From a virus: a stretch of 29,613 bases of DNA. Numbering within the stretch: the stretch's first letter is position 1; every line of letters begins with the position of its first letter. The notes beneath the pieces were generated by a model. That model searched no databases, had not been told where the DNA came from, and saw only the letters and a list, made by a program, of their open reading frames with translations. Location of the stretch: positions 1 to 29,613 of IMG/VR virus record IMGVR_UViG_3300027917_000137, one strand, 5' to 3'. The position numbers and the translations under genes were made by a program. This document shows, piece after piece, positions 872 through 28,563 of this stretch.

Positions 872-1138
872 ACTTTCTCTTTTAAGATATCCTTTTAATA
901 AATCTCTATAAGCTGCTTTAGAACCAGAGTTTTGTCGCCCATCATAAACATCGTGATGCCATTTACATAGTATTGCAACATTGTTTATATCATACTTACG
1001 TTTCTTGTTACCGCCCATACCTATGCCTTGTATGTGTGCTAACTCTAACCATTTATTATCATTACAGTAAGCCCATTCACAACGACCTCCTGCACGTTTC
1101 ATAGCTTCTTCTCTTATTGGTGATAAACTTTCCATCAT
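860..1138 (-). CDS. HNH endonuclease-like protein
   Basis: A 92-residue protein with the HNH fold signature. Cys pairs flank the core (RCEWAYC near residue 19), the first His is in LELAHIQGIGMGG (about 32-44), then NNVAILCKWHHDVYDG (about 52-67) gives the Asn and the final His-His. HNH proteins are metal-dependent nucleases. A stand-alone one of this size can be a homing-type nuclease, a packaging cofactor or a restriction-like enzyme. Here it lies far from the terminase, at the downstream end of the minus-strand operon, overlapping the SET gene by four bases (ATGA). The role is not resolved. Confidence 0.8.
   Translation of the reverse strand: MMESLSPIREEAMKRAGGRCEWAYCNDNKWLELAHIQGIGMGGNKKRKYDINNVAILCKWHHDVYDGRQNSGSKAAYRDLLKGYLKRESSLS
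863..884. terminator. Possible weak terminator between convergent operons
   Basis: GAAAG-TGAA-CTTTC can fold as a 5-bp hairpin at 864-877, followed on the plus strand by TCTCTTTT. It sits where the plus-strand late operon meets the minus-strand cluster, where a terminator would be expected. The stem is short and AT-rich and the T-tract is interrupted, so the support is mostly positional. Confidence 0.3.
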
Positions 1139-1443
1139 ACTTTATACATTGTATATTTTAATGTAATCTCCTCTCCTGCTTTAATGGTTCTTAATGGAAA
1201 CAAATGGTTAACACCTTGACTAGGTGACTTGTCCATACGTATTAACTCACAGTTAGGTTCATCACTATGATTAATAAACCCACCTAATGGTGTTCTATAT
1301 ATAAACTCGTCACCATTTATAAATACATGTGTTATACCTAAAGATGTTTCTGTATCTTTAAGAACTTTATTAGTAAATAAACCTAACCCATCTATAGGTG
1401 ACTCTTTAATAGTCATATAACTAGGCAGTGGTTTGTATGTCAT
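1135..1443 (-). CDS. Small SET-domain protein, probable lysine methyltransferase
   Basis: A 102-residue protein that is almost only a SET domain. An N-terminal GLGLF motif lies in a segment resembling SAM-binding SET regions (IDGLGLFTNKVL). NHSDEPNCEL (about residues 58-67) matches the NHSxxPNC core. IKAGEEITLKY near the C-terminus matches the GEELTxxY segment that completes the active site. SET enzymes transfer methyl groups from S-adenosylmethionine to lysine side chains. The length is close to that of the 119-residue viral SET protein vSET of chlorella virus PBCV-1. It overlaps both neighbours by four bases. The substrate is unknown and could be a host chromatin, ribosomal or virion protein. 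Confidence 0.78.
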   Translation of the reverse strand: MTYKPLPSYMTIKESPIDGLGLFTNKVLKDTETSLGITHVFINGDEFIYRTPLGGFINHSDEPNCELIRMDKSPSQGVNHLFPLRTIKAGEEITLKYTMYKV

Positions 1444-2577: not shown

Positions 2578-3119
2578 TAGTTAATACCCCACTCTGCAGG
2601 TATATCAGAGTTATCTAGCCACCATGACTTACGCCACTTACCACTATGTCCTCCGCATTTTGCAGGGTCATTTGTGCTACATGTAAAGTCAGGACTTTTA
2701 TCTGACCTTTTAGAGTTACGGTTATCGTATACCATCTCTCCACAATATGGACACTTTAAGTCATCTCTATACTTATTTTGTTGTTCCATTTTATCTACTA
2801 TTCCTCCTATCATTCCACCAGAATCTTGTAATCCTGGTGTGATATCTTCTGACTCTATACCAACTGCTGCTAATTTTTCTTGCACTGATAAGTTATCAAA
2901 CTCATCTTGTGTATATTCAACAGGCATATCAGCAAGTCTTTCAATCATATCGAAATACTTACTAAGTTGTTCATCTGACCATGTTGTTTTATCAGCAGGA
3001 AACTTCATAGTAACTGCGTATTGATTAGCAGTACCTATGATTTTGTTTAGAGTTTCTTTATTTTGTACTGATGCAGTCATAGACTGTATAGTCTGTGCTA
3101 TAAATTCTAAGTCTTGCAT
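2577..3119 (-). CDS. Zinc-ribbon protein next to the annealing protein
   Basis: A 180-residue protein. The first 110 residues are acidic and predicted helical. A flexible Gly-rich linker (DSGGMIGGIVDK) follows, then a C-terminal zinc ribbon: CPYCGEMVYDNR near residue 123, and FTC and KCGGH about 20-30 residues later. The zinc end resembles modules that bind single-stranded DNA or recombination intermediates. It directly follows the Rad52-like gene with overlapping start and stop, so a helper role in recombination or replication is likely. Confidence 0.6.
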   Translation of the reverse strand: MQDLEFIAQTIQSMTASVQNKETLNKIIGTANQYAVTMKFPADKTTWSDEQLSKYFDMIERLADMPVEYTQDEFDNLSVQEKLAAVGIESEDITPGLQDSGGMIGGIVDKMEQQNKYRDDLKCPYCGEMVYDNRNSKRSDKSPDFTCSTNDPAKCGGHSGKWRKSWWLDNSDIPAEWGIN

Positions 3120-3712
3120 TAGAATGGTGCTTCATCTGGTGTTACTGGTGTAGTATCTACTTTGACATCTTGTGAAACTATACTGTCCATAATGTCATTC
3201 ATGCGTTGAATATCTTCCTTAGTAGGTTTGTTTTCTTTCTTACGCATATCTACTTTAGTAACTTCTACCATAGCATCTTTATCAGCCATCTCTTGTGTAT
3301 AGCCATCAGGTGCTATAGATGTAGCTTCTTCTTCTGATTGTACTGAACCTGACCATAGCTCTACGCCTAGACCAAATCGCATACATGCACGTTTAAATGC
3401 ATCAGACTCTGCATCTTTTAAGTTAGTACCATCATTGAACTTAGCATTGCCTAGCTTAAATGTATCAACGTCACCGAAGCCATCATAGCTACCCATACCA
3501 TCAATTGTTATAGTACCTTTAGCACCGACAATACGTTTTTCACCATTGTATGTACCATATACAGGTTCGCATTGCCATGTGTATTTAACTCCACTGTCCC
3601 TTAAACGCTCAACGTAGTGTGCGTGTGGAACGTAATCACCAAACTTACCAGCTGGTGCTTTTCTAACTATCTCCTGTGGAAATGGGGATAGTAAGTCAAC
3701 GTTATTAGTCAT
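3119..3712 (-). CDS. Rad52/Sak-like single-strand annealing protein
   Basis: A 197-residue protein. The N-terminal 120 residues contain features of the Rad52/Rad22-like phage annealing family: YVPHAHYVERLRDSGVKYTW, then a beta-rich middle (GTITIDGMGSYDGFG), and the signature LKDAESDAFKRACMRFGLG at about residues 98-116. These proteins bind single-stranded DNA and pair complementary strands for recombination-dependent replication. The C-terminal third is a charged linker ending PDEAPF, which resembles the acidic C-terminal tip of bacterial SSB. A conserved hairpin (3726-3762) stands just ahead of its ribosome binding site (AGAAGGGA). Confidence 0.75.
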   Translation of the reverse strand: MTNNVDLLSPFPQEIVRKAPAGKFGDYVPHAHYVERLRDSGVKYTWQCEPVYGTYNGEKRIVGAKGTITIDGMGSYDGFGDVDTFKLGNAKFNDGTNLKDAESDAFKRACMRFGLGVELWSGSVQSEEEATSIAPDGYTQEMADKDAMVEVTKVDMRKKENKPTKEDIQRMNDIMDSIVSQDVKVDTTPVTPDEAPF

Positions 3713-5440: not shown

Positions 5441-6874
5441 TTAGTTTAGCACGCTTAGTTTTAATGCGTGTTCTTTTACTTCTTCTACGTCTTTTAAGTT
5501 AATTATCTGTCCTTTACGACATGTATCTATACAATCTTTAAGTAGATTGTAACCAACACTACTATCGTTTTTACCAAAGACTTTCATATCACTAACCCAT
5601 ATACGTCTTGCTGGTTGTTCAGCTAGCCAGCGTAATGCTGGACCATCTATAACATTACCTCTACCAGAATGTATACTTAGGTAATCATCATCAACACGTA
5701 GTCCATTCTTAGCAATAATGCGTAAGTCACCGTAGTCACCACTACCATTGTACATAGCAATGTTAACTGCAGGTAATATCATCATAATATCTAAGATATC
5801 TTTACCACTAAATCGCATTGAACCAGAAGCATCAATCAATATTGTGCCACCTTTGACACGTTGTCTTTGCTTGAATATCTTCTTGTCAATACAATATCTG
5901 TTAATGTATTTAGGATTGTAACCGTAATCTTGTGGTCTATATTCTCTACCATTTTTTAATCTAGCTTGTAAATTAACTGTTAATGGCGGCTCATGCATTC
6001 TCATTTCACCCCACTGACCCATGCTAGAAGTAGTATAATATTGCATATCCTTCATTAGTTCACGTTTCATACGTTGTTCTAAGTCTTTAGCAGAACCAAT
6101 ACCACCTGATTCCTGTTCAGATTTATCAGAACCTTTGCCATCACCTTCACCTTGACCTTTTTTAGGCATAGGTTTAAATACATATTTTTCATCTGGACGT
6201 TCATCCATTTCTAATAGTATTGACAAAAGTTTTGCTTGTCTTTTTACAGCAGCAAACGTAGGTAAATCAGCTCGTCTATCATCTATAAGCTTTCTCATAA
6301 ACTTATATACTTGACTATAAACAAATTGATATTCCATACGTCTTGCCTCAGTAAAACGCATATCATCTGCACAGTTATTAAGTACACTTAAGTACCATTG
6401 TGCTCTACCAGTTAAATTAGCACTCGTAGAGTAATATGCACGTGGATGTTTTGTATCAATCCATGTAACTAAATTAAGAAAACAAGTAATAAGTTCTGAA
6501 ATAGAACCTTTGTAGATTGTATTAAGTACTTGCATATCTGTAAACTCTTGGCATACATAAGGGTCTGTTATACCTCTACCTGAATAACCAAGTAGCCAAT
6601 CAATACGCATACGTTCTAGTATTTCTACAGCTTCTTGTCTTACATCTGGACCAAATTTACCTAATGTTTTAGGTGACCATTTAGCACGACCTAACTGATG
6701 TCTACGTATCATACGACTGTGATTAACACCACATGCTTCGCATTCTCTGTCAAGTGGTACAACCATTTTGTTGTTAACATTATCAGTACGTGGTACTGAA
6801 TTAAGTTCAGTTGTACCATAAACAGTCCAGTCTTCACCAGTTACAATTTCTGGATATGGATAAGCTTTAGTCAT
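5441..6874 (-). CDS. VWA-domain protein, CobT-like partner of MoxR
   Basis: A 477-residue protein. Residues about 1-230 are helical, with a CEAC pair near 45 and many Arg and Trp. A low-complexity Gly/Lys/Asp/Ser linker spans about 237-270. The von Willebrand A domain begins near 342 with GGTILIDASGSM, the metal-binding MIDAS motif (DASGS at 348-352), and continues through VWVSDM-like strands near 416. VWA proteins of this kind work with MoxR-family ATPases as chaperones or metal-insertion machines (CobS/CobT, RavA/ViaA). The MoxR gene is immediately upstream and overlaps by eight bases, so the two form one machine. The target is unknown, and cobalamin synthesis genes are not present here. 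Confidence 0.82.
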   Translation of the reverse strand: MTKAYPYPEIVTGEDWTVYGTTELNSVPRTDNVNNKMVVPLDRECEACGVNHSRMIRRHQLGRAKWSPKTLGKFGPDVRQEAVEILERMRIDWLLGYSGRGITDPYVCQEFTDMQVLNTIYKGSISELITCFLNLVTWIDTKHPRAYYSTSANLTGRAQWYLSVLNNCADDMRFTEARRMEYQFVYSQVYKFMRKLIDDRRADLPTFAAVKRQAKLLSILLEMDERPDEKYVFKPMPKKGQGEGDGKGSDKSEQESGGIGSAKDLEQRMKRELMKDMQYYTTSSMGQWGEMRMHEPPLTVNLQARLKNGREYRPQDYGYNPKYINRYCIDKKIFKQRQRVKGGTILIDASGSMRFSGKDILDIMMILPAVNIAMYNGSGDYGDLRIIAKNGLRVDDDYLSIHSGRGNVIDGPALRWLAEQPARRIWVSDMKVFGKNDSSVGYNLLKDCIDTCRKGQIINLKDVEEVKEHALKLSVLN

Positions 6875-7577
6875 TAGCTTTAGCTAGTAGTATTGCGTCA
6901 ATAATCTCCTCAGATTTATCAGCAAATATAAGTTTAGCTGCAACTTCTTGACTGAAGTCTTGGTCTTTAAGCATGAAAAATTCTTTCCATGCACGTATAG
7001 ATACACGTTGTTCTGGGTCATCAACTAACGTAGTTTCGTTGATAACTTTATGCCATTCAGTAGGAAATACAGCCAAAGCTTTTGGATGTATTGTATCCAT
7101 ATTAATCTTTACTGGGAATCTATCTTTGAGTGCCAAAGGTAAACTCTCAGGTGGACTATTAGTTGTTGCGATAACCTGGAAACCATCTGCTGGTCTAACA
7201 GTTTCTCTCTTATCATTGTTAAGAGTAATACCTGCTATTTCTGGGTCATCTAAAATTGCATGCAGAAAAGTCATAGCGTCTGGTGATGCGTGGTCAATCT
7301 CATTGATTACCAATCTACCGCCATGTCGCCATGCCTGTATAGCGATACCGTCATGCCATTGAAAGCCACCATCTTTACTTGGTTTATAAAAGCCTTCTAA
7401 ATTAGCAGAAGCAGTATCTTCTGTCATTGTAATTTGAAACACATTTGGTTCGCCAAACGCATTTATAGGTTGATTTTGCTTTACAGCACTATATGTTTTA
7501 CCAGTACCTGGTGGCCCATATAGTAATATTCTATTTGATACACTTATTACATTGTCAAGTAATTCCCAACAATTCAT
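6867..7577 (-). CDS. MoxR-family AAA+ ATPase, CobS-like
   Basis: A 236-residue, single-domain AAA+ protein. Walker A GPPGTGKT is at 20-27, Walker B RLVINEID at 88-95, sensor 1 VIATTNSP around 135-142, an Arg-finger-like KDRF at 151-154 and a sensor 2 region RVSIRAW near 191-197. MoxR ATPases use ATP to remodel or activate a partner that is usually bound through a VWA protein, which is encoded next. In marine phages such proteins are often labelled CobS, but a role in cobaltochelation is not shown here. It overlaps the upstream gene by four bases. Confidence 0.86.
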   Translation of the reverse strand: MNCWELLDNVISVSNRILLYGPPGTGKTYSAVKQNQPINAFGEPNVFQITMTEDTASANLEGFYKPSKDGGFQWHDGIAIQAWRHGGRLVINEIDHASPDAMTFLHAILDDPEIAGITLNNDKRETVRPADGFQVIATTNSPPESLPLALKDRFPVKINMDTIHPKALAVFPTEWHKVINETTLVDDPEQRVSIRAWKEFFMLKDQDFSQEVAAKLIFADKSEEIIDAILLAKAND

Positions 7578-8044
7578 TTTGTACCTTCCTTTCCTTCGTC
7601 TATATCTTTTAAGAACTCCTCAGCTTGGTCACCCAAGTGAGAAGCATGTTCCATTACATCATTCAATGTGATATCGTTCATACGTTGAGCTTTATCATAC
7701 TGAACAACTTGTATTGCAGATGCTGGATGCATTAGCCAGCTGCTAAATACACCATTATCTATAGCTTGCTGCCTAAGATTATCTATCTCATCTTTAGTAA
7801 ATATTTTCTTACCTACTAATGATGGATGAGTATTAATATAATCTGTCATCATTTCTGCTTTGTTTACCATATCAATAGTTGTAGCCATAGTTACAGCTTG
7901 TACTATATCCTTAGCTTTTAGCATTACACGAACAGTTCTAACATCATCATTATCATGTTCACCTGGCATATCTAAGTATGTTAAGGTAACCATAAACTCA
8001 ATGTCATCTTGTTCTTTTACTTCTAAGTAATCGCCTGATGGCAT
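7574..8044 (-). CDS. Hypothetical first gene of the MoxR/VWA operon
   Basis: A 156-residue acidic protein of no family I recognise. The N-terminus is beta-like (DIEFMVTLTYLDM, then VRTVRVMLKAKDIVQ), followed by helices and an acidic Lys/Glu C-terminus. It has a strong ribosome binding site (AGAAAGGAG) and overlaps the ATPase gene, so it probably supplies an adaptor or substrate for the ATPase/VWA machine. Hairpin copy 2 and a 300-nt structured RNA stand immediately upstream. Confidence 0.6.
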   Translation of the reverse strand: MPSGDYLEVKEQDDIEFMVTLTYLDMPGEHDNDDVRTVRVMLKAKDIVQAVTMATTIDMVNKAEMMTDYINTHPSLVGKKIFTKDEIDNLRQQAIDNGVFSSWLMHPASAIQVVQYDKAQRMNDITLNDVMEHASHLGDQAEEFLKDIDEGKEGTK

Positions 8045-8070
8045 ATATCTCCTTTCTATTTTTATAGTAT

Positions 8071-8103
8071 GTAAGCCTTTGGCTCATAAAGAGAAAGGCT
8101 TAC
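8071..8103 (-). promoter_or_regulatory. Conserved intergenic hairpin, copy 2
   Basis: Minus-strand GTAAGCCTTTCTC (13), loop TTTAT (5), GAGCCAAAGGCTTAC (15). The 3' arm has two extra bases (CC). It has the most GC-containing stem of the five copies and stands 20 bases before the ribosome binding site of the MoxR-operon leader gene. Confidence 0.75.
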
Positions 8104-8399
8104 ACACATTAGTCGCCAGTTATGCAGAGTAGACTGGGCATGAATACACATAACTAGCTTTGCATCTATGAATTGTAGTTGTAGATATTTACATAGTTTC
8201 TAAAACATTCATAGATAGCTTGTAACACACAACTTAGACACTCGCCACCATGGGTTCTTATTGTCTGTTAGCCGATAAATCGAACTGCAAGTGTTATGTG
8301 CTACAAGCTACCTACATTTTGGTCTAGTGGCTAGTAAGGGGAAACAAACTAGCAATGTAAGTAGCTCTGCGTTTCAATCACAGGGTTGCTGCATTGACT
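8104..8399 (-). ncRNA. Long structured minus-strand RNA upstream of the MoxR operon
   Basis: No open reading frame with a start signal is present, but the minus-strand RNA folds extensively. An 18-bp helix forms between 8310-8293 and 8233-8216. An 11-bp helix forms between 8364-8354 and 8318-8308, enclosing the hairpin GCUAGU/ACUAGC. A 10-bp helix forms between 8216-8207 and 8173-8164. A 7-bp helix between 8155-8149 and 8124-8118 competes with GCCCAGU/ACUGGC (8139-8133 with 8120-8115). The three non-Watson-Crick positions in the two longest helices are G-U pairs on this strand and A-C mismatches on the other. It could be a long leader, a riboswitch-like element or a processed small RNA. I cannot match it to a known family. 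Confidence 0.65.
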
Positions 8400-8630
8400 T
8401 TAATCGTGGTCACCACAATCACATTGCATATCTGGTGTAATTTTGCTAGCTAAAGCTAACAAAGCAACTTCCATTTCATGTCGGTTGCACCATATCTGCA
8501 CGTGTTCCATATCATTAGTTAATCCTACTGATATATCTTGCCATTCCATTGGGCTATAGTGTGGTGGTTTAGATTGTAAACATTCACCGCAATGACCATA
8601 TTGTACTATTAAGTTTTCTTTATATGGCAT
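8400..8630 (-). CDS. Small Cys/His-rich protein
   Basis: A 76-residue protein with CGEC near residue 14, then CNRH near 48, and a C-terminal CDCGDHD. These residues could bind one zinc ion. The last 20 residues (MQCDCGDHD) are acidic and metal-ligand rich. No family is recognised. It overlaps the start of the Api92-like gene's downstream end by 11 bases and ends where the structured RNA begins. Confidence 0.55.
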   Translation of the reverse strand: MPYKENLIVQYGHCGECLQSKPPHYSPMEWQDISVGLTNDMEHVQIWCNRHEMEVALLALASKITPDMQCDCGDHD

Positions 8631-9673: not shown

Positions 9674-9701
9674 ATGTTCCCTTTCTTATTATTAATAGTA
9701 A

Positions 9702-9738
9702 GTTCTTTTCTATTTTTCGTAAAGAAAAAGAAAAGAAC
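9702..9738 (-). promoter_or_regulatory. Conserved intergenic hairpin, copy 3
   Basis: Minus-strand GTTCTTTTCTTTTTC (15), loop TTTAC (5), GAAAAATAGAAAAGAAC (17). The 3' arm has an extra TA. It lies between the 35-residue zinc gene and the 67-residue gene, before the sequence AGAAAGGGAACATATG. Confidence 0.7.
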
Positions 9739-9751
9739 GCCAAGTATTCAT

Positions 9752-11477: not shown

Positions 11478-11503
11478 ATATTTCCTTTCTTTATATATAT
11501 AAA

Positions 11504-11540
11504 GTCTTTCTTTACTTTCCCTAAAGAAAGAAAGAAAGAC
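11504..11540 (-). promoter_or_regulatory. Conserved intergenic hairpin, copy 4
   Basis: Minus-strand GTCTTTCTTTCTTTC (15), loop TTTAG (5), GGAAAGTAAAGAAAGAC (17). It follows the 15-5-17 geometry and is placed before AAGAAAGGAAATATATG. Confidence 0.7.
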
Positions 11541-11663
11541 ACAAATTTTTCCATAATAATTAAAGATACGCCAATAATTAAGTGGTCGAAATGTCCATGA
11601 CTTAATTCCATTTGGATGAATGCCAACATATTCATGTCGGCACTCATCATATTGTGCGTAACT
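11541..11663 (-). ncRNA. Structured intergenic RNA after the SSB-tip gene
   Basis: The stretch between the stop at 11664 and hairpin copy 4 has no convincing gene. Minus-strand RNA can form AAUUAAGU/ACUUAAUU (11607-11600 with 11583-11576) and GCC-x-ACA/UGU-x-GGC (11641-11635 with 11628-11622). The odd position of the second helix is a G-U pair on this strand. It is probably an intercistronic or leader structure. Confidence 0.4.
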
Positions 11664-12343: not shown

Positions 12344-12363
12344 TATCTCTCACTGTCCTTTCT

Positions 12364-12400
12364 GTCTTTAAGAGAAACTCATAAAGAGTTTCTTAAAGAC
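12364..12400 (-). promoter_or_regulatory. Conserved intergenic hairpin, copy 5
   Basis: Minus-strand GTCTTTAAGAAACTC (15), loop TTTAT (5), GAGTTTCTCTTAAAGAC (17). The 3' arm has an extra CT. It stands before the AGAAAGGA of the first minus-strand gene. Confidence 0.75.
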
Positions 12401-12692
12401 GTTAGAAAGGCGTGAGAGTAAGATTAATATATTGTGTCGGAAGCATTAAGCAAAGAGTAGAGTTAGATTTATCGGACACCTAACAACATACAAAAGATGA
12501 AAGGTAGCCGACTGTGCAAGCACAGAGATTGAATTAGGTAGTGAAATATCTAGTTTATATTACCATTTCATTATAGGGATAGGGTATGATATTTCACTAA
12601 AGAATACCCTGTATTCTTGTCATACTGTAGTAAATAGGTTACAGATTTCCATACTCTAGATTAAATCTAAAGTATAGTGTTCGGAAATCTGT
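12401..12692 (-). ncRNA. Structured leader of the minus-strand operon
   Basis: No gene is present. If transcription starts at about 12692 (see the promoter at 12698-12725), the RNA begins exactly with a 10-bp stem ACAGAUUUCC/GGAAAUCUGU (12692-12683 with 12650-12641). This encloses a smaller AUACU/AGUAU helix with a G-U pair. Further along, three helices overlap: AGAAUAC/GUAUUCU (12617-12601), AGGGUAU/AUACCCU (12610-12604 region with 12587-12581) and GUGAAAUAUC/GAUAUUUCAC (12597-12588 with 12550-12541). They cannot all form as simple nested stems, so a pseudoknot or switch is possible. A CUGUG-CUUG-CACAG hairpin follows near 12520. Confidence 0.5.
12426..12453 (-). promoter_or_regulatory. Second candidate minus-strand promoter
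   Basis: Minus-strand TTGCTT (12453-12448), a 16-base spacer and TATATT (12431-12426). The start would fall near 12419, just ahead of hairpin copy 5. The -35 box is poor, so this is only a possible internal promoter. Confidence 0.25.
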
Positions 12693-12710
12693 AATCCTAT
12701 ATACAGTATG
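12621..12710. repeat. 90-bp imperfect inverted repeat
   Basis: The outer arms CATACTGTA/TACAGTATG, middle ATAGG/CCTAT, inner ACAGATTTCC/GGAAATCTGT and central ATACT-x-TAGA/TCTA-x-AGTAT form a nested palindrome. Its right outer arm overlaps the -10 of the minus-strand promoter, so the repeat could act on DNA as an operator or cruciform as well as in RNA. Confidence 0.6.
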
Positions 12711-12725
12711 ACTACCTAATGTCAA
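12698..12725 (-). promoter_or_regulatory. Main candidate promoter for minus-strand genes
   Basis: A perfect -35 TTGACA (12725-12720), a 16-base spacer and TATATA (12703-12698). The predicted start, about six bases on, is the A at 12692, the first base of the leader's terminal stem. It is the strongest minus-strand promoter-like sequence in the divergent region. Confidence 0.6.
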
Positions 12726-12970
12726 TCTAAGGTGTTCTATAATATAACGTAAGGTCTAAAAAATATGTTGGTAATCTTTCGTACAGATAAAAGCCTTATA
12801 GTAGTTGCCTTTCTGGGCAGGAGCGGGCATTGTATGTACCAGTCCTGACTAAACCTTTTTTAGTGTTCTTGGGTACTGCCTTTGTCTTTCTAGTGTACAG
12901 TTTTACCTGTGAGCAGCTTTTGATGTCCCGGTCACCGCTTTACCTGTTACAAAATACTAGGGTTTAGTGT
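12726..12970. other. Non-coding part of the divergent region
   Basis: This 245-base stretch has no credible gene. It contains short inverted repeats (CAGGA/TCCTG around 12819-12848, ACTAAA/TTTAGT around 12849-12865, CTAGT/ACTAG around 12890-12960) and a direct repeat TTTACCTGT at 12902-12910 and 12939-12947. It has more G and C than the rest of the window. It lies just before the terminase gene and could hold a packaging or replication site. Nothing proves this. Confidence 0.35.
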
Positions 12971-12999
12971 TTGTATTTAATGGAACTATAGCATATAAT
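12971..12999 (+). promoter_or_regulatory. Candidate late promoter for the virion cluster
   Basis: TTGTAT (12971-12976), an optimal 17-base spacer and a perfect TATAAT (12994-12999). The start is expected near 13006, about 30 bases before the terminase GTG. It would drive the whole plus-strand structural operon. Confidence 0.65.
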
Positions 13000-13036
13000 T
13001 CTCACTATACAAACATCTATGGAAAGTTAGTTAATA

Positions 13037-28351: not shown

Positions 28352-28353
28352 TC

Positions 28354-28362
28354 TGTTATAAT
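28354..28362 (+). promoter_or_regulatory. Extended -10 promoter for capsid genes
   Basis: TG-T-TATAAT matches the extended -10 consensus TGnTATAAT. No good -35 is seen, which is normal for this type. Transcription would start near 28369 and give a leader of about 195 bases before the scaffold gene, allowing capsid proteins to be made in greater amounts. Confidence 0.6.
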
Positions 28363-28368
28363 ATTTGT

Positions 28369-28560
28369 TAGGCGTTGCGTGGTCCGCTACAAATAGACCT
28401 GCAATCAGCTTTCAAAGCCTACGTAGAAAGCTCGTATTAAAACCGTAGAGTAATGGACTTATAGCTTGTAGCTACCAGAGAGATAAGTCAAGTGGTAAAG
28501 GTAGCACCACGGCAAGATGCCTATGGTCTTGTCTGATAGGTTAATACATAGTGGAGGTAC
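28369..28560 (+). ncRNA. Structured leader RNA upstream of scaffold and capsid
   Basis: No gene is present. Perfect short helices include GCTTTC/GAAAGC (28408-28413 with 28426-28431), GACTTAT/ATAAGTC (28456-28462 with 28483-28489), an inner TAGCT-TGT-AGCTA (about 28462-28474), and ACCA-x-GGC/GCC-xx-TGGT (28506-28513 with 28519-28527). GCTACC/GGTAGC can pair across them. The region is less AT-rich than the genes. It could be a regulatory leader, a stabiliser or a small RNA. Confidence 0.55.
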
Positions 28561-28563
28561 AAG

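Follow-up and report, generated by a model that had tools for sequence, protein, structure and literature searches.

GOLLD and ROOL form an ordered homo-oligomeric cage. Both are phage-encoded, long, elaborate RNAs of unknown function, described as large and ornate (PMC12286853), and in GOLLD one region is conserved and a second one less so. Among bacterial RNAs, Y RNAs occur together with Ro60/Rsr, a protein that combines a TROVE and a VWA domain, while in integron attC sites conserved arms enclose a variable apical sequence and cassettes are exchanged. On a smaller scale, the mRNAs of phages contain intercistronic hairpins such as the CUUCGG hairpins of T4 and the RNase III sites of T7, which are structured RNAs located just before start codons within operons.

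The locus considered here lies in 29,613 nt of phage DNA (IMG/VR record IMGVR_UViG_3300027917_000137; this whole stretch is called the window), in which a long structured RNA had been predicted on the minus strand at 8104–8399, ahead of a MoxR/VWA operon. Judged by comparison with related loci, this RNA is one copy of an undescribed RNA family of ocean-derived phages, and not a lone leader.

Structure of the window RNA

The RNA (8399–8045, minus strand) fills the 355-nt gap between the minus-strand ORFs 8400–8630 and 7574–8044, and no long ORF is present on the minus strand within 8045–8399. An exhaustive helix search of the minus strand from 8400 to 8060 returned, as the longest helix, 24 uninterrupted base pairs (8293–8316 with 8210–8233, five G·U), followed by two 14-bp helices (8354–8367 with 8305–8318, two G·U; 8094–8107 with 8067–8080), a 12-bp helix (8147–8158 with 8115–8126) and an 11-bp helix (8207–8217 with 8163–8173). 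When the same region was dinucleotide-shuffled 300 times, no helix exceeded 16 bp; the folding z-score was −3.7 for the minus strand and −2.9 for the plus strand. The region and strand of the original prediction were right. Its helices of 18 and 11 bp do exist, but only as parts of the longer 24- and 14-bp helices, and the element continues past 8104 to include the hairpin at 8067–8107. Because the 24-bp helix and the first 14-bp helix overlap at 8305–8316, they compete for the same strand; mutually exclusive pairings, which had been expected near 8115–8155, are thus real, but their main site is 8305–8316. Scanning this region for promoters and terminators gave nothing in excess of shuffles.

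The features of the RNA and the genes referred to below, all on the minus strand, are:

8045–8399, minus strand: whole intergenic structured RNA, a one-frame array with leader hairpins (no long ORF; z −3.7; conserved in relatives)
8367–8383, minus strand: 5' hairpin module CUGUGAUUGAAACGCAG, nearly invariant (CUGUrAUUGAAACGCAG) in L001–L004, L070 and L046
8354–8367, minus strand: strand P, GAGCUACUUACAUU, partner of the 5' part of Q (14-bp helix; covariation in 28 relatives)
8330–8353, minus strand: inner hairpin within module 1, with UUUCCCCUU as its loop (in relatives, all five pairs have changes on both sides)
8305–8315, minus strand: token Q, GUAGGUAGCUU, common to the P–Q and Q–R helices (9-nt core GUAG[GA]UAGC, used as blind anchor)
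8297–8304, minus strand: arm x, GUAGCACA, pairing with x' at 8222–8229 (complementarity of arm pairs 97.5% in one sample and 100% in another)
8230–8296, minus strand: variable apical insert of 67 nt, the exchangeable cassette of the window phage (replaced by unrelated inserts in close relatives)
8222–8229, minus strand: arm x', UGUGUUAC, pairing with x (same arm tests)
8211–8221, minus strand: token R, AAGCUAUCUAU (token anchor; 24-bp helix 8293–8316/8210–8233)
8163–8217, minus strand: hairpin 3, UAUCUAUGAAU...AUUCAUAGAUG, rival of Q for the 3' part of R (11-bp helix; almost invariant in L001–L004)
8115–8158, minus strand: hairpin 4, with AUGCCC in the loop (12-bp helix; UGCCC loops recur in the arrays of relatives)
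8067–8107, minus strand: terminal hairpin, immediately 5' of the ribosome-binding site (14-bp helix; stem conserved with changes in L001–L004)
8042–8055, minus strand: Shine-Dalgarno sequence AAAGGAG with the start codon of the gene that follows, read from the sequence
7574–8044, minus strand: downstream gene, 156 aa (no family, no fold match)
6867–7577, minus strand: MoxR/AAA_5 ATPase (Pfam AAA_5, E 1e-19)
5441–6874, minus strand: VWA-domain protein with DxSGS motif and no TROVE (VWA-type C-terminal domain)
3119–3712, minus strand: single-strand annealing protein, which could plausibly bring about the exchange of cassettes (PHROG 3290, E 3e-10)

Elsewhere in the window, strong hairpins resembling 8067–8107 lie a short way 5' of the Shine-Dalgarno sequence of minus-strand genes at 9690–9745, 11490–11545 and 12360–12415. 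The divergent gap before the terminase gene (12420–12780) is a second strongly structured region (z −5.9) with a multibranch fold and long hairpins (TAGTGAAATATC/GATATTTCACTA and TCATACTGTA/TACAGTATGA); it has no Q/R tokens and is partly conserved in relatives (70–87%). The adjoining non-coding stretch 12780–13036, just upstream of the terminase, is 85–92% identical in many relatives, above many of their genes. An intergenic region at 28352–28563 contains TAGCTTGTAGCTACC and a D-arm-like sequence; it is not a tRNA, its z-score is −0.2 and it has no relative among the collected loci. The 102-aa protein encoded at 1135–1443 (minus strand) is SET-domain-like by sequence and matches PHROG 28741 (unknown function).

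Arrays in related phages and conservation of their pairing

Four IMG/VR relatives of the 156-aa gene share the intergenic region, which is in parts almost invariant and in parts compensated (e.g. GCUAGU/ACUAGC against GUUGAC/GUCAAC). With further loci collected from IMG/VR, both as MoxR relatives and as contigs carrying the frame sequence, the same frame was found in many phages, a locus holding from one to four or more copies, with quite different apical sequences. The arrays are built by strict rules, a grammar of the form P-[loop]-Q·x-[insert]-x'·R-[module]-Q·x-[insert]-x'·R. The token Q, GUAGGUAGCUU in the window, reads GUAG(G/A)UAGCUU across arrays and R is AAGCUAUCUAU; the order of tokens alternates (QR 236, RQ 142, QQ 22, RR 18). 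Because Q has complementarity to P as well as to R, each Q can pair with the preceding or the following R. Joint changes of P, Q and R in the sub-lineage L059/L083/L063 have left both pairings possible. In L070 and L073, mutually exclusive hairpins stand ahead of the start codon.

The check on homologues that had been proposed for the predicted helices was carried out, and the helices proved to be kept with compensatory changes. For the P–Q hairpin, 96.7% of cells are paired in 28 relatives and 11 of 22 pairs have changed on both sides; the covariation score was 0.318, against 0.168 for shuffled alignments and 0.03–0.082 with slid partners. The arms x and x' were located through the Q and R token sequences only, as blind anchors. 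An earlier token set gave 30 distinct arm pairs that were 89.6% paired (re-dealt partners: mean 61.9%, maximum 70.8%), and strict 9-nt tokens gave, in a first sample, 28 arm pairs that were 97.5% paired, with 21 G·U and 3 A·C. In new loci, which were gathered later by a different pattern and some of whose arms recur in the first sample, 30 distinct arm pairs were 100% complementary (276 Watson–Crick and 24 G·U pairs, no A·C and no mismatch).

The argument by which the RNA strand had been deduced, namely that odd positions are G·U on one strand and A·C on the other, is sound and holds across relatives: G·U outnumbers A·C by 43 to 8 in the P–Q alignment, by 37 to 0 in the module described below and by 24 to 0 in the arm pairs of the new loci. 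Since G·U is found without A·C, the RNA strand is the strand of the genes.

A module that recurs between R and Q is invariant in three places: AGUA(A/G)G on one side, AC(U/C)GAA on the side opposite, and CCCUGU in its loop. By its sequence, the AGUA/GAA pair of strands is the signature of a loop E (sarcin-ricin) motif. The strict pattern closed 32 of the 45 loop-E starts in the new loci. As 7 of the 10 pairs of the R–Q outer helix are constant in the alignment of this module, covariation does not settle the pairing register.

Position and distribution of the arrays

Nearly always, an array shares its strand with the genes on either side. Their 3' end is found 10–25 nt before a start codon with a Shine-Dalgarno sequence, or the start codon follows after further hairpins. 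Own promoters were detected for 6 of 111 arrays and terminators for 2 of 111, a short gene having been overlooked in one of the two terminator cases. At locus L192, a strong terminator, CGCCCCCATTAATTTGGGGGCGTTTTTTTT, comes after one array with no gene between. This terminator lies within 8770–9100 of L192 (minus orientation), as does a promoter-like site, TTGACA-17-TATTCT, 45 nt before the next array.

No nucleotide match to the region and no match to the VWA protein were found among the cultured phages of INPHARED, and the exact frame pattern with a gap of 30–60 nt did not occur in the cellular genomes of about 85,000 bacterial and archaeal species. A search of cellular genomes with the VWA protein led to marine MAG contigs that carry Q/R tokens, namely L209, L215 (Actinomycetota MAG RS345) and L210 (filed under Gammaproteobacteria), which are probably binned phage. 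In 41 further genomes from the order to which the Actinomycetota MAG belongs, the loop-E module was not found. By binning only, the host may be among low G+C marine actinobacteria.

Inserts and their exchange

The 159 distinct insert copies fall into 76 families (clusters), and inside the frame they fold better than shuffles (median z −1.4). Five pairs have changed on both sides in one insert family. Hairpins like the T-arm of tRNA, with a T-loop, occur in 3 of the 76 families against 0.15 expected; these are at L072 2965–3117, L115 3224–3368 and L015 3176–3274. In several of the insert T-loops, C56 is replaced by G; as a guess from sequence, a nearby AGCGA could restore the elbow contact.

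The copies within one genome have unrelated inserts. The same inserts recur in different phages and ahead of different genes, and near-identical genomes differ by insert: L036 and L039 share 98.2% identity across 6.2 kb, yet their inserts (54 and 53 nt) are unrelated. Conversely, the RNA module of L046 and L043 is 98.75% identical over 80 nt against 72–74% for their genes, and occupies different loci, ahead of the 156-aa gene in one phage and behind the VWA gene in the other; the RNA of L022 and L073 is 90.9% identical over 110 nt against 71–77% for the genes. These comparisons between genomes show that inserts are exchanged as cassettes while the joints stay fixed.

Neighbouring genes

Fold searches with the VWA protein and the 156-aa protein gave nothing significant, the VWA model matching only VWA domains, and weakly. 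The RNA sits before the MoxR/VWA operon in many phages and elsewhere between VWA and a downstream gene, or before unrelated genes. MoxR was present in 26 of the 31 large records examined; among 54 independently sampled loci, 21 had MoxR or VWA within the available DNA. In five records that share the terminase and contain arrays (G020, G026, G028, G029 and G048), neither VWA nor MoxR was found by searches that detected the positive controls, these records being 35–41 kb long and possibly incomplete. At least two gene families follow 35 of the 39 recurring insert families, a figure that is soft because single-linkage BLAST families may split divergent genes. Clearly different genes nevertheless stand behind one and the same insert, namely those for an SGNH-hydrolase-like protein (GDS and GGND motifs), a 192-aa protein and the 156-aa family.

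The functional tie to a MoxR/VWA machine, which had been the reason for regarding the RNA as a candidate regulatory or functional RNA, is not supported by these data: the RNA occurs without detectable MoxR or VWA, and its insert families stand ahead of unrelated genes, so that the link is not obligatory. Like a leader or riboswitch, the arrays are co-directional with a gene and upstream of it; one type of RNA is not associated with one gene family, as the 35 of 39 insert families indicate.

Comparison with described RNA classes

That no known family was recognized in the window agrees with the Rfam 15 covariance search, where the window and 11 array loci gave no match at the gathering threshold and permissive scans yielded only sub-threshold noise. 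ARAGORN found no tRNA or tmRNA in the window or in 17 loci.

The nearby VWA protein and the T-arm-like hairpins of some inserts recall bacterial Y RNAs. A Pfam scan, however, detected no TROVE domain in 29 VWA homologues, and a VWA protein without TROVE does not make a Ro60/Y RNA pair; this candidate was rejected on that account, for want of an Rfam Y-RNA match and because the RNA occurs without the VWA gene. Compared with GOLLD and ROOL, the present family differs in having an array grammar, swappable inserts and a variable number of units, in matching the covariance model of neither RNA and in that no tRNA genes were found beside its arrays. The likeness to attC lies in the conserved arms and the cassettes, but here the arms pair as RNA, with G·U kept on one strand, and the cassettes hold no ORF; the attC core GTTRRRY (RYYYAAC/GTTRRRY) was not seen in R when inspected by eye. 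Intercistronic hairpins of phages share the location before start codons, but the present RNA is far longer and has sequence-conserved tokens and dozens of exchangeable inserts. To the best of our knowledge, no RNA family has this Q/R array architecture. Searches of open PubMed Central text gave no description of such an RNA, and an earlier account may exist elsewhere.

Discussion

Structure, strand, compensatory changes, grammar, conservation and exchange are all read from the aligned loci, and the question is what a chain of this kind might do. We consider it only slightly less probable than an even call that the RNAs are an undescribed phage family of Q/R hairpin chains whose exchangeable inserts act as domains in trans; with the same assurance or marginally less, we would regard the inserts as interchangeable specificity domains selected by varying hosts or rivals. 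A trans role is favoured because inserts are replaced in near-identical genomes, because they are independent of the downstream gene and because the L192 array ends at a terminator. It is weakened because the arrays are co-directional with genes and many end 10–25 nt before a Shine-Dalgarno sequence and start codon, which fits action in cis equally well, and because own promoters and terminators are rare.

The most serious competitor, which we consider doubtful but a genuine possibility, is a cis element indifferent to the gene, that is, a 5' leader or intercistronic structure governing the processing, stability or translation of the following mRNA, with register shifts reaching the last R near the ribosome-binding site. 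The strict co-direction with neighbours and the closeness to start codons would be expected of it, as would the competing P–Q and Q–R helices, whose three strands changed together in L059/L083/L063, and the exclusive hairpins of L070 and L073 or the terminal hairpin before the start codon in the window. It would not account for insert identity that is independent of the downstream gene, for differing inserts before the same gene in near-identical phages, for frames numbering from 1 to 4 or more or for an array ending at a terminator without a gene, and simple stabilizers would not need dozens of structured inserts. Dedication to the MoxR/VWA operon, as a riboswitch-like sensor, is very improbable: the position before the operon in many phages and the switch-like geometry speak for it, but phages have the RNA without detectable MoxR or VWA in searches with positive controls, the RNA precedes unrelated genes and the copies in one genome have unrelated inserts. 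As a general explanation the sensor is refuted by this distribution, and it could hold for a single module only.

Two further readings concern the chain itself. Adjacent helices without linkers and motifs of the tertiary type (AGUA/GAA internal loop, T-loops, invariant CCCUGU loop) would suit an RNA-only or RNA–protein scaffold that assembles as a particle, like GOLLD and ROOL, and is decorated by the inserts; considering that array length varies several-fold, we think this improbable. Inverted repeats and the clear exchange of cassettes at the Q/R strands could also point to a hairpin-forming recombination or replication site at the DNA level, for which the RNA would be irrelevant. A DNA hairpin, though, would not keep G·U and nearly exclude A·C on one strand only (24 against 0, 37 against 0), and the orientation of the arrays follows the genes and the inserts carry RNA motifs (T-loops, AGUA/GAA), so that such an element is already disfavoured and has very little probability.

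If the inserts do act in trans, the RNA would be transcribed inside operons and its inserts would be interchangeable domains. Each Q can pair either with the preceding R or P or with the following R, so that the chain could shift register by branch migration. Homologous recombination at the Q/R strands is presumably how the inserts are moved, possibly through the single-strand annealing protein encoded in the window; phage Rad52-like proteins recombine short, diverged stretches (PMC3945230). Most likely the inserts would bind or mimic factors of the host or of rival phages that differ among hosts, and targets varying between hosts would explain the fast exchange in otherwise identical phages.

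Implications

The locus should no longer be read as a MoxR/VWA leader. If the structure holds in cells, it represents a class of RNA with recombination-shuffled cassette domains and fixed joints, found in a widespread group of marine phages, and raises questions about the binding partners of the small, well-folded inserts, which number dozens, and about whether the chain of competing helices relays a signal along the RNA. A broader proposal, to which we give a somewhat lower, tentative weight than to a trans role as such, is that this phage lineage keeps a recombining library of structured, trans-acting RNA domains on a universal two-strand scaffold, which would for example inhibit host defence or rival phages or act as decoys, and which would be exchanged between phages far faster than genes. 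If true, this would be the equivalent, in RNA, of anti-defence gene cassettes that are swapped, and one may ask whether phages fight host defences with RNA instead of protein. The arrays thus suggest an RNA-based arsenal or control layer in marine phages that seems not to have been described before.
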